Below are positions 19,980 through 36,629 of a stretch of 50,151 nucleotides of DNA, piece by piece. Every line of letters starts with the position of its first letter. Position 1 is the stretch's first letter. The stretch spans positions 1 to 50,151 of IMG/VR virus record IMGVR_UViG_3300046689_000416; one strand, written 5' to 3'. The DNA comes from a virus. The notes beneath the pieces are model-generated. The model was given only the letters and a program-made list of their open reading frames with translations. It was not told where the DNA came from and searched no databases. Both the position numbers and the translations under genes were made by a program.

Positions 19980-20615
19980 TCAGATGAATGTCGGGTGCCG
20001 CTCTTGTGCCATCGCCCGCTTAATCCACCGCAGGTAGAGCGGGATTCGCGTATCCGGCCACGTACTGAACCCGCTCCCGTCGCAACTGGTACACCCGATC
20101 CGTAGGGCGTACTCGATCCGACGTTGGCTGTTCACGCGGCCCATGTGGGCCGGTCTGCCTTTGTCTCGCCAGTCTCGGACGACGGACCGGGCAACCTTGC
20201 CCTCCTTGAACTCGTCGTCCCCGCCGACGAACACGGCCGGCGGGTCGATCGCCTGGACGTCTTCCCGCATCATCCCGTTCTGCAAGACGAGGCACGGTTC
20301 AAAACCGAACGCCCGTATCCGACCGTGCCACACGTCCCACAGACGGAACGTCTCTTTCGCATCGCATACCTTGTCCGGGCACGTCACCCAATCAATCGGC
20401 ACGTCGGCGTCGGCGTACAGGGCGAGCATGGCCGCGAACTTACCGGGCAGGAATTCACCGAACGCCCCGTTATCCGCCGCCACCGGCAGCCCCAGGTCCG
20501 CTATCGAGGACGGGCTGTTCCCCGCCGTCGGGACCGGGAAGCAGCCCAGATACTTCGGGGAGGCCGGCCCCAATCGTCGGAGCGTGTCCGTCGCCCCGCT
20601 GACGTATAGCCTCAA
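19980..20615 (-). CDS. DpdA / tRNA-guanine transglycosylase-like protein
   Basis: 211 residues from a TTG at 20615 with AAGGAG upstream. Layout matches the short phage TGT-like (DpdA) group: LRLYVSGATD start; VAADNGAF with Asp48 at the position of the TGT DSGGF-type acid; WVTCPDKVCDAKET; VFVGGDDEFK with the GG turn at 131-132; AHMGRVNS; then CTSCDGSGFS with candidate nucleophile Asp179. The TGT zinc ligands are not clear. Such enzymes swap guanine in DNA for a 7-deazaguanine base made from preQ0. No FolE, QueD, QueE or QueC was seen in this genome, so the base would have to come from the host. An alternative is a TGT-fold protein with another role. Confidence 0.68.
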   Translation of the reverse strand: MRLYVSGATDTLRRLGPASPKYLGCFPVPTAGNSPSSIADLGLPVAADNGAFGEFLPGKFAAMLALYADADVPIDWVTCPDKVCDAKETFRLWDVWHGRIRAFGFEPCLVLQNGMMREDVQAIDPPAVFVGGDDEFKEGKVARSVVRDWRDKGRPAHMGRVNSQRRIEYALRIGCTSCDGSGFSTWPDTRIPLYLRWIKRAMAQERHPTFI

Positions 20616-20814
20616 GGATGCTCCTTTTCTTCGCTTTGACCTTGACCATCCGCTCGGCCCACACGATCAGGTCCGCCAGAGCTTCCTCGGGCGTGTCACA
20701 CGACTTGCCCCCGCACGGAGTCGGGTTCCACCACCCGTAGCGGCCGTCGGAGAACTGGTTGACGAGTGCCGCGGCGAGAAAGTCGAACGCGGCGATCTTC
20801 TCGGCGTCGGTCAC
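20470..20814 (-). CDS. small early protein overlapping the DpdA-like gene
   Basis: 114 residues from a GTG at 20814 with AAGGAG upstream. The first about 65 residues look like a real protein (FLAALVNQF-like helix, GRYGWWNPTPCGGKSCDTPEEA). The last 48 codons overlap the start of the DpdA-like gene in another frame by 146 bp, and that tail is Gly/Pro-rich and may not be selected. The Shine-Dalgarno of the next gene lies inside its KAKKRS codons. Function unknown. Confidence 0.55.
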   Translation of the reverse strand: MTDAEKIAAFDFLAAALVNQFSDGRYGWWNPTPCGGKSCDTPEEALADLIVWAERMVKVKAKKRSILEAIRQRGDGHAPTIGAGLPEVSGLLPGPDGGEQPVLDSGPGAAGGGG

Positions 20815-21634: not shown

Positions 21635-21859
21635 CTAGACCCTCACGGTTGGAACCCAACTGCTCGGCTTGCCACCTTTGCCGACCTTGTGCGGCCGGAC
21701 GTACCCGTTCTTCTTCAACTGTTCGAGGTTCCACCACACCTGCTCCCGCGGGTGCTTGTAGCCCTTCACGTAGGCCATCCGCGTCAGGATCGTGGTCTCG
21801 ACCGGGATGTCGGACCGCTCGATGGCCTGCAAAATCAGGTCGGCGAGGGAGAGTTTCAC
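21635..21859 (-). CDS. small winged-helix-like DNA-binding protein
   Basis: 74 residues; GTG at 21859 overlaps the TGA of the methyltransferase-like gene (GTGA). The order helix (LSLADLILQAIERSD), helix (TTILTRMAYVKGYKHPREQV), recognition-like helix (WWNLEQLKKNGYV) and basic wing (KVGKGGKPSSW) fits a compact winged helix. It may regulate the block or assist the neighbouring modification gene. Fold call only. Confidence 0.55.
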   Translation of the reverse strand: MKLSLADLILQAIERSDIPVETTILTRMAYVKGYKHPREQVWWNLEQLKKNGYVRPHKVGKGGKPSSWVPTVRV

Positions 21860-22422
21860 AACGCACCCCACTGGTCGGCCATTGCCTGGGCCATCCCCGG
21901 GAACGTCCGGGACCGGTTCCGCTTCCGATCCGGCCCGGGTGGTTCCACATGGACCGAGTTCCCGAGGGCGAGGACCGGCTTCGTCTTCACCAAGGGCGGC
22001 AACCCGCGCAGCCACAGGCAGGTGGCCTTCCTTTCTGCGTCCCCGAACCACCACGGTTGAACGGTCTGGGTCTGTTGCACGTCGATGTACTCCTTGGCGT
22101 GGCCGTGCATAACCGGGTTCTCGATCGCCACCCGCTCGATCGGACTGTTCCACAGTTGCAGGAAGAACCGACAGGCCTCGGACATGAGGGCCTTTCTCCC
22201 CGGCCGGGACAACCACCGGACTCCGGAATTGCACAGGTAGGTGCAGTCCGGGTGGAAGATGGCCAAGTCCCACCCCTTGTCCAGAACGTGTCGGACGTCG
22301 CCCTCGAAGTGAGGACCGTCCACCTCCGAAGGCCCCAAATCGCACGACCAGGCATCGTGACCGAGGGCCAGGAAGGCGTCCCGCACCCGTCCCGAAAACT
22401 CGCACCCGATCAGCACTCTCAC
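21856..22422 (-). CDS. short C5-cytosine methyltransferase-like protein
   Basis: 188 residues from a GTG at 22422 with GGAG upstream. RVLIGCEFSGRVRDAFLALG matches the SAM-binding motif I of C5 methyltransferases; AIFHPDCTYLCNSG has Cys60 where PPCQ normally sits; and VAIENPVMH matches the ENV motif. The catalytic Cys and Glu are both present, but the protein is far shorter than a normal C5 enzyme and has no clear target-recognition region. It could be a minimal phage methyltransferase, a base-modifying relative, or inactive. It sits 1.2 kb upstream of the DpdA-like gene in the same transcription unit. Confidence 0.65.
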   Translation of the reverse strand: MRVLIGCEFSGRVRDAFLALGHDAWSCDLGPSEVDGPHFEGDVRHVLDKGWDLAIFHPDCTYLCNSGVRWLSRPGRKALMSEACRFFLQLWNSPIERVAIENPVMHGHAKEYIDVQQTQTVQPWWFGDAERKATCLWLRGLPPLVKTKPVLALGNSVHVEPPGPDRKRNRSRTFPGMAQAMADQWGAL

Positions 22423-34583: not shown

Positions 34584-34839
34584 GTTGCCGGTAGATCCGG
34601 GTTTTAGGCCGCGTCATCGGGAGTTGATGCTGGCGTTGCGGGGTGGGGAGCCGTCGGGTGTGCAGTTGCGGACGACGCGGGTGTGTGTGAAGGCCCGGGA
34701 GGTGTTTACGGCGGGGGAGTTGGAGGCTCGGATTGTGGCTCATGCGGAGCGGGTGTTGCGGGAGGAGGTGGTGTCGCCGGACGACGCGAAGAGGCGGCAG
34801 ACGGGTCGGGAGGGGAATGGCAGGCGCAAGTCGTGTTGA
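34576..34839 (+). CDS. small protein between terminase genes
   Basis: 87 residues; ATG at 34576 overlaps the end of the preceding gene by 8 bp. FELPVDPGFRPRHRELMLAL then RVCVKAREVFTAGELEARIV and a basic tail (DDAKRRQTGREGNGRRKS). Could be an alternative small terminase or a packaging accessory. Same G-rich composition as its neighbour. Confidence 0.5.
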   Translation: MFELPVDPGFRPRHRELMLALRGGEPSGVQLRTTRVCVKAREVFTAGELEARIVAHAERVLREEVVSPDDAKRRQTGREGNGRRKSC

Positions 34840-36629
34840 GTCCCGAGAAGTACCATCTCGAAGTGCCGACCGATCCGAAGGGGAATTTGGAGTGGCGTCT
34901 TCGTTTGTTGGAGGTGTGCGAGTCGAAGCCGGAGTATCGTCGTGCGGTGGTGGAGATGTGCAAGCAGGACCTTTTCTTTTTCATCCTGGTGTTTGTGTGG
35001 CAGGTAAATCCGAAGGTGGTGGGTCGGGAGGTGGGTCCGTTTCTGTCGTGGGGTTTCCAGCACGAGCTTCTCCGCAGGTCGATCGACCGGCTCCTCGGGG
35101 AGTGGCCGGACGACCTTTTGTGGGAGAAGAGCCGGGAGATGGGAGCGACGTGGCTGGCGTTGATTCTGGCGGTGTGGCTGTGTCTGTTTCACCCGAACAA
35201 GCGGGTTCTCTGCATCAGCCACTCCGAGGGTGCGGTGCGGAAGGCGGGGGACGACGCGACATTGTTCGCCAAGGTCGAGTTCATTCTGGATCATTTGCCG
35301 GAGTGGTTGAAGGTGGGGGTGAAGCGTCGGAAGATGGGTTTTCACTTCGCCGGCCGCTCTTCGATGACGGGGGTGGCTCCGACGCAGAGGTCCGGGGTCG
35401 GGGACCGGGTTTCTCTGGTCCTCTTGGACGAGTTCTCGAAGCAGCGGGAGGCGGCGGCGATTTGGGGTCAGACGGCGGACACCGGGCCGCGGCTGGTGAT
35501 CGGGACCCATTACGGGGTGGGCACGTTCTATTACGAACTCACGAACCGTCCGGACTTGCCGAAGGTGATTTTGCACTGGTCCCAGCATCCGGAGAAGCGG
35601 AAGGGTTTGTATCAGGTGCATCCCGACCGGCGGGTGGAGGTGTTGGTTCCGGAGGGTTTGCCGGAGGATTACGAGTTCGTGCGGAACGGGAGTCCGGCGG
35701 GGGGTCCTTATCCTGGTCTTCGGAGTCCGTGGTACGACCGGGAGTGTGCGCGGCGGCATTCGGTGCGGGACGTGGCGATGCACTTGGACATCGACCCGCA
35801 GGGATCCACTTCGCAGGTTTTTGATCCCCTCGAAGTGAACGGCCTCATTCGGGACTACTGTTGCGACCCGTACTGGGAGGGGAACTTGGAGTCCGAGGCC
35901 GGTGTGGACCGGCTGGTGGAGCGGGCGGGCGGCCTGATTCGGCTGTGGTGTCCGATCGACGTGTCGGGCCGGCCTCCGTTGGCGGTTTATTCCGCGGGTG
36001 CGGACGTGAGTACCGGTCAGGGGGCCACTCCGTCCTGTCTCGGGGTGATGAACGACCGGGGCGAGAAGGTGTTGGAGTTCGCCGACGCGAGGATGGGGGT
36101 GGACGATTTCGCGTCGTTCTCGGCCCGGATCGGCCACCTGTTCCGGTCGGCGGACGGTCGGCCGATGAAGTTGGGGTGGGAGACGAACGGTCCCGGGGGC
36201 CGGTACGGGATCAAGTTGGCCGAGGTGGGTTACACTCACGTCTATTACCACACGAACGAGATGCGGCTGAGCCGGCCGGTGGCGGACAAGCCGGGCTGGC
36301 CGCCGGGTGTGGAGACGAAGCGCATCCTTCTGGAAAACTACCGGGCGGCGCTCTTCGGACGGAGGATGGTGAATCGTTCGAAGTTGGCGATGCAGGAGCT
36401 ACTGTCGTTCGAGTACACCCCCCGGGGTCAGGTCGAACACGCCGGCCAAGTGCTGGCCAACGACCCCGCCGGCTCGGGGGAGAACCACGGGGACCGGGCG
36501 ATCGCGGACGCGATCATGTGGCTCGTGGGGAGTAAGGGCGTGTCGAATTGGTCGGAGCCGAAGCGGGAAGGGCCGGTGCAATCGCTGGCGTGGCGTCGTA
36601 TGCTGGCTGCGAGGTCTTCGGAGGACTAA
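34833..36629 (+). CDS. terL: large terminase subunit (ATPase/nuclease)
   Basis: 598 residues from a GTG at 34833 that overlaps the upstream stop; the exact start is uncertain. Walker A-like EKSREMGATW (residues 98-107), Walker B VSLVLLDE (193-200) and coupling motif region (LVIGTHYGVGT) mark the packaging ATPase. The nuclease half shows Asp391 (GADVSTGQG), Glu450 (LGWETNGPGG) and Asp554/559 (GDRAIADAIMWLV). It cuts and pumps DNA through the portal encoded two genes later. Secure. Confidence 0.88.
   Translation: MLSPEKYHLEVPTDPKGNLEWRLRLLEVCESKPEYRRAVVEMCKQDLFFFILVFVWQVNPKVVGREVGPFLSWGFQHELLRRSIDRLLGEWPDDLLWEKSREMGATWLALILAVWLCLFHPNKRVLCISHSEGAVRKAGDDATLFAKVEFILDHLPEWLKVGVKRRKMGFHFAGRSSMTGVAPTQRSGVGDRVSLVLLDEFSKQREAAAIWGQTADTGPRLVIGTHYGVGTFYYELTNRPDLPKVILHWSQHPEKRKGLYQVHPDRRVEVLVPEGLPEDYEFVRNGSPAGGPYPGLRSPWYDRECARRHSVRDVAMHLDIDPQGSTSQVFDPLEVNGLIRDYCCDPYWEGNLESEAGVDRLVERAGGLIRLWCPIDVSGRPPLAVYSAGADVSTGQGATPSCLGVMNDRGEKVLEFADARMGVDDFASFSARIGHLFRSADGRPMKLGWETNGPGGRYGIKLAEVGYTHVYYHTNEMRLSRPVADKPGWPPGVETKRILLENYRAALFGRRMVNRSKLAMQELLSFEYTPRGQVEHAGQVLANDPAGSGENHGDRAIADAIMWLVGSKGVSNWSEPKREGPVQSLAWRRMLAARSSED

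Follow-up and report, generated by a model that had tools for sequence, protein, structure and literature searches.

A compact family of DpdA-like phage proteins is linked to genes for 7-deazaguanine synthesis and transport

Background

Enzymes of the TGT/DpdA superfamily exchange bases by an established chemistry, in which C1' is attacked and one base is swapped for another. In a 2019 survey, phages encoding DpdA alone, without synthesis genes, made up the largest group, and their modification status was described as 'difficult to predict' (PMC6884629). Orion, a phage with a lone DpdA, has no 7-deazaguanine in its DNA, and the DpdA-only Salmonella phage 7-11 has just traces of dADG (PMC6884629). 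The QPTR/YhhQ family of transporters imports preQ0, preQ1 or queuine (PMC11130926), and in the 2019 survey YhhQ was uncorrelated with any phage group (PMC6884629).

Here we describe a family of small proteins represented by a gene in a virus contig of 50,151 bases, the whole of which was analysed and is called the window below. Like phage DpdA of the 9g, CAjan and Rosebush type (PHROG 7068 and 887), to which it is homologous by profile and whose D, D, GG, H196 and D motifs it carries in the same order, the small family occurs in double-stranded DNA tailed phages and is linked to the preQ0 pathway. Unlike phage DpdA, which has about 250 to 360 residues, its members have about 210 and lack the C-terminal extension; they have Gln at the motif of residue 112, where DpdA1 has His; they usually come without the full set of preQ0 genes and often with a Vut_1 transporter; and they form their own family, PHROG 15826, which ordinary profile libraries miss. 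A literature search found no biochemistry or activity for this small family.

Results

An intact gene of a widespread small family

The gene encodes 211 residues from a TTG start (20615-20613) and sits in a long run of genes on the same strand, between about 25.9 and 17.9 kb of the window (Table 1). Its GC content at codon positions 1, 2 and 3 is 0.63, 0.50 and 0.82. Together with this codon pattern, homologues in named phages, IMG/VR and bacterial contigs (29-44% identity), which align over nearly the full length, show that the reading frame is not a chance one: the gene is genuine and intact, and belongs to a compact DpdA-like family. A GTG-started open reading frame at 20470-20808, also on the minus strand, lies in another frame and overlaps the first 145 bases or so of the gene; the initial part of this open reading frame appears to be coding, and the overlap may be a mere open shadow frame.

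Table 1. Coordinates of the compact DpdA-like gene, its motif codons and its methyltransferase neighbour in the window
Feature	Position	Strand	Basis
Compact DpdA/TGT-like gene	19980..20615	-	Open reading frame and translation, PHROG 15826, tblastn, DpdA profile match, AlphaFold2
Shine-Dalgarno-like AGGAG	20621..20625	-	Five bases 5' of the TTG start; read from the sequence
D48 codon (DNGAF)	20472..20474	-	hhalign: D64 of BcepGomr DpdA, D72 of 9g DpdA (DSGAF); 49/49
D81 codon (PD)	20373..20375	-	hhalign: Asp of DpdA LDxIGD; 49/49
Q112 codon	20280..20282	-	Weakly on Q of TGT 'IVQG', score not significant; 49/49
G131-G132 codons (GG turn)	20220..20225	-	hhalign: DpdA GG, TGT IGGL; 49/49
H157 codon	20145..20147	-	hhalign: His = H196 of phage 9g DpdA; 49/49
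D179 codon (CDGSG; candidate nucleophile)	20079..20081	-	hhalign: DpdA DSSSW, weakly TGT MFDCV; 49/49
C5-methyltransferase-like gene, PHROG 757	21856..22422	-	E 5.5e-54; about 1.2 kb upstream, same co-directional run

Searches with the single sequence were empty in Pfam (up to E 1), NCBIfam, PADLOC, the PDB (phmmer) and IMG/VR patterns, and profiles of relatives were needed. The only PHROG match of the window protein is to 15826 (E 1.7e-35), a family labelled 'unknown function'. By tblastn it matched 22 phage records at 29-36% identity, several of which carry the depositor annotation 'DpdA-like tRNA-guanine transglycosylase', among them P-cluster mycobacteriophages such as Majeke and the Arthrobacter phages Sonali and Aoka. 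An alignment of eight members, run against IMG/VR, recovered at least 395 relatives, and in our main alignment (A3) all 49 members belong to PHROG 15826. The CxCxxC zinc motif of the C-terminal site of TGT is absent from the 211-residue window protein.

The family also has a separate bacterial branch (L113-L157; Caballeronia, Paraburkholderia, Sphingopyxis and others), often of about 225 residues, which was found with a profile from an alignment smaller than the full one; in at least two cases phage-type integrase genes lie close by. In a Gemmataceae metagenome-assembled genome (MAG), a copy of the small protein is continued in frame by a zinc-ribbon/helix-turn-helix segment of transposase-like appearance (L178:1456-2613), and the contig also has a relaxase-like gene. 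The related Seuratviruses phiG7 (L002:9917-10509) and SHIN8 (L010:7917-8509), both Escherichia phages, have the small gene split at the same position into two overlapping reading frames, which may reflect a break common to both or a frameshift in the gene.

Homology to phage DpdA

We compared the A3 profile of 49 relatives with a profile of 12 full-length phage DpdA proteins (A4) using hhalign. The two aligned with a probability of 94.8 (P 5.3e-8) over 150 columns and a score of 60.7; none of 100 column shuffles exceeded 23.7, and the reversed profile scored 11.4. D48, D81, GG131-132, H157 and D179 fall in register on DpdA motif residues (Table 1), and D48 also falls on the DSGGF of TGT, at D89 of E. 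coli Tgt (D102 in Z. mobilis numbering). Across the 49 relatives P29, D48, P80, D81, Q112, G114, G131, G132, K137, H157, G159, R160 and D179 never vary. On these profiles, the family of PHROG 15826 is almost certainly homologous to phage DpdA. A first-pass annotation of the window had proposed a DpdA/TGT-like base exchanger with D48, a GG turn and D179, without preQ0 genes and perhaps cooperating with a C5-methyltransferase. The three elements lie exactly where it placed them, in a protein that keeps the TGT/DpdA residue set; the DpdA-like identity and the missing preQ0 genes also stood up, whereas the cooperation did not.

In whole phage genomes, A3 singled out one gene each: the gene annotated as DpdA in PenguinLover67 (E 6e-7), Megan (5e-5) and Funsized (0.001), and CPT_0056 in Campylobacter phage CP220 (E 0.002), a Flavobacterium-phage homologue of which is annotated as DNA guanine transglycosylase, DpdA. 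The group of CPT_0056 and immuto35A_64 shares the DN, PDxxGDxxxT and VxQG/VAQDG motifs with the small family, but its proteins are larger (247-264 residues), the alignment with A3 (P 1.8e-6) spans just 56 columns, and its phages have QueC nearby (CC_R7). We take this group to be, probably, the DpdA3 of the literature. A search of the archaeal virus HVTV-1 with A3 gave no match. Hutinet et al. (2019) named H196 as a conserved residue of DpdA that DpdA2 lacks (PMC6884629). Its equivalent H157 is kept in the small family, unlike in DpdA2, and in a DpdA2 test A3 matched nothing in the Vibrio nt-1 genome at E up to 10.

The profile search suggested in the first-pass annotation thus returned a strong match to DpdA, whereas A3 scored 17.7 against 15 TGT sequences, which is not significant (24 of 100 shuffles reach it). 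Given that the direct score is not significant, we draw the link to TGT solely through DpdA and the fold, and do not claim that the small protein is a member of the TGT family proper.

A predicted TIM barrel

AlphaFold2 modelling with the 49 sequences (pLDDT 96.8, pTM 0.91) predicted a TIM barrel and little else. Foldseek returned TGT as the first match in the PDB, with 202 residues aligned at Z 14.8, and the small family has candidate equivalents of TGT (PF01702) residues D102, Q203, GG and D280. It has no significant sequence similarity to TGT, no zinc-binding C-terminal part and no Pfam match. Unrelated barrels score as high (pyruvate kinase, Z 16), and epimerases too match the model as well as TGT does. 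The predicted fold, which had been suggested as a check, is therefore consistent with TGT/DpdA and not decisive; we set aside fold search alone as a diagnostic, since pyruvate kinase and other barrels tie with TGT, and for the same reason it would be a weak means of refutation.

An hmmsearch of PDB sequences with the small family gave no TGT match and a weak one to glycerophosphodiester phosphodiesterase-like (GP-PDE) proteins (E 0.07), over about 47 profile positions in the C-terminal half, which we judged to be barrel similarity and rejected as an identity. That result, with the equally good fit of pyruvate kinase and epimerases, is what could be said for a diverged TIM barrel of other chemistry, GP-PDE-like for instance, in which the DpdA likeness would be general to barrels. 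Such a reading is very improbable, as the DpdA profile match lies far above shuffles with every motif residue in register, and the repeated linkage to 7-deazaguanine genes described below would be unexpected for a generic barrel.

Linkage to transporter and preQ0 genes

Vut_1 (PF02592), the QPTR/YhhQ transporter, is a partner gene and no relative of the small family. In Majeke, ReqiPine5 and Aoka it is found just upstream; in Majeke the transporter is gp53 and the small gene gp54, and the mycobacteriophage GreaseLightnin has the pair too. Vut_1 adjoins the small gene in about one third of the non-redundant relatives: 17 of 49 IMG/VR clusters have it on the same strand at a distance of no more than about 1.2 kb, and none has it elsewhere in the locus, with up to 8 kb scanned per side. 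Both gene orders occur, and the linked copies are scattered over several branches of the tree. At the level of records, Vut_1 scored above cut-off in 18 of 50 with the small gene versus 1 of 50 control virus records, which were picked by an unrelated gene. It was also the most frequent of 91 immediate neighbours surveyed (15), followed by N6/N4 DNA methylases (4), with QueC, a QueF-like gene and a C5-methylase found once each.

Synthesis genes adjoin the small gene as well. In a 57 kb contig (L087) it is followed by QueC, QueE (a TIGR04508 match above cut-off) and QueD, with ends that overlap or nearly so, and the record has no profile match to full-length DpdA; the small protein stands there at the place that DpdA occupies in other phages. 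QueE also adjoins the small gene in L070 and L112. No preQ1 riboswitch or other Rfam family was found near the small gene in the window or six relatives. The family is thus linked to genes for 7-deazaguanine synthesis and transport, the Vut_1 neighbourhood being new here, and that neighbourhood suggests that the phages scavenge the modified base and do not make it. A 7-deazaguanine is likely the substrate of the small family.

In unrelated elements, genes resembling PAPS reductase turn up repeatedly next to the small gene or close to it. Two are annotated or confirmed by Pfam (L003:5652-6569, ReqiPine5 gp02; L197:7343-8386, Erythrobacter R6L gp7), and two were recognised by eye alone (L116:6484-7461 and L176:2458-3480).

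Sonali, R29Z, phiG7 and SHIN8 encode the small protein alongside full-length DpdA and preQ0 genes, so that in these phages it is not simply the sole inserter. This coexistence, the very small size of a protein that is barrel only and the link to a precursor transporter would all suit an enzyme of nucleosides or nucleotides, a hydrolase or a monomer base exchanger that releases salvaged 7-deazaguanine, or activates it, for use by another enzyme. We consider that role unlikely, given that L087 and most other records show no second inserter and that the homology is to DpdA, which acts on a polymer.

The methyltransferase neighbour

A C5-methyltransferase-like gene is indeed present in the same co-directional run (Table 1), as the first-pass annotation had observed. 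Its suggestion that the two base-modification genes work together we rejected as unspecific: PHROG 757 is very common in IMG/VR, none of 50 virus records carrying this methyltransferase family has the small protein, and among the relatives' loci fetched a C5-methyltransferase lies near the small gene in three only.

Supply of 7-deazaguanine in the window phage

A profile search of all 50,151 bases found no Vut_1, QueC or full-length DpdA, and small locally built profiles did not find FolE, QueD or QueE in the window, in agreement with the earlier reading that preQ0 synthesis genes are missing. The record has no terminal repeat, so genes absent from it could lie outside. Lacking preQ0-synthesis genes, a transporter and full-length DpdA, the phage would depend on host preQ0. 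The first-pass annotation had proposed that source, to which the missing genes naturally lead, and the transporter linkage of the relatives supports supply from outside.

The closest cellular homologues of the window protein (42-44% identity) are in a Gemmataceae MAG that holds QueC and TGT. From these homologues a Gemmataceae host appears plausible; the matches of the window terminase in the order of that MAG are weak, the best having E 2.9e-22 at 29% identity. The terminase large subunit gene itself (34683-36629, plus strand) has weak PHROG similarity (E 3.7e-10), and most of the open reading frames tested in the structural region have no PHROG match, which places the window phage far from described groups.

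With no preQ0 gene or transporter in its record, the window protein might be inactive, or idle for want of 7-deazaguanine, like the lone DpdA of Orion, whose DNA is unmodified in a host without the pathway (PMC6884629); the split copies in phiG7 and SHIN8 point the same way. This is a minority possibility that we regard as doubtful. The window protein keeps every motif residue intact, and its nearest neighbours in the tree include a transporter-linked copy, cL027, the nearest of all, although with support (84/86) that is not strong. The Gemmataceae MAG with the 42-44% identical copies, a candidate host of the window phage, has QueC and TGT.

Discussion

Taken together, the small proteins probably form a compact subfamily of DpdA that would replace guanine in phage DNA by a 7-deazaguanine such as preQ0 or one of its derivatives. 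We infer the catalysis, DNA as the polymer, the identity of the base and a protection from restriction by the small protein. The predicted protein is a single TIM barrel of about 200 residues, without room for the C-terminal zinc-binding part of TGT. By analogy with TGT and DpdA, D179 would attack C1' of guanosine as the nucleophile and guanine would leave; preQ0 or a relative would then enter, and the polymer would be released with the 7-deazaguanine in place. D48 would serve as the recognition and acid-base aspartate, with the base held in place by D81, Q112 and the GG turn. For the 7-deazaguanine we expect a source outside the phage: in many relatives the adjacent phage-encoded queuosine-precursor transporter would bring it in, and the window phage would presumably draw on the pool of its host.

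As the polymer we favour DNA, because the family has nothing of TGT beyond the barrel and its neighbours are DNA-modification genes, and on balance we expect the small family to act on it. Were the enzyme instead a 7-deazaguanine transglycosylase of RNA, for example of host tRNA, it would alter translation and leave phage DNA as it is. Membership in one superfamily with the tRNA-directed TGT would fit that reading, as would the retention of Q112 and other TGT pocket residues and the normal service of QPTR to tRNA queuosine (PMC11130926). We nonetheless think an RNA target improbable: the small protein lacks the TGT portion beyond the barrel, its significant relationship is to the DNA-acting DpdA and not to TGT, and DNA methyltransferases are frequent neighbours of its gene. 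In addition, profile searches found no TGT gene in the hosts of some relatives (Microbacterium, Actinomadura), which would thus have no tRNA queuosine system to adjust.

For DNA-directed exchange by the small protein, we tentatively propose that PHROG 15826 and the phage QPTR transporter could form a minimal route for importing 7-deazaguanine, taken from the surroundings or from the host pool, and inserting it into phage DNA, even in hosts like M. smegmatis that are reported to make none, and that carriers of the single gene, such as the window phage, could use the host pool. A likely function can be assigned to a family that is labelled unknown in PHROGs and is absent from Pfam, NCBIfam and PADLOC, despite its at least 395 relatives in IMG/VR. 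If active with some 200 residues, the small enzyme would be, to our knowledge, the smallest base-exchange module in the TGT/DpdA superfamily. For the phages that carry a lone DpdA, the Vut_1 linkage gives a testable answer, a compact transglycosylase together with an importer, in mycobacteriophages that are easily grown.
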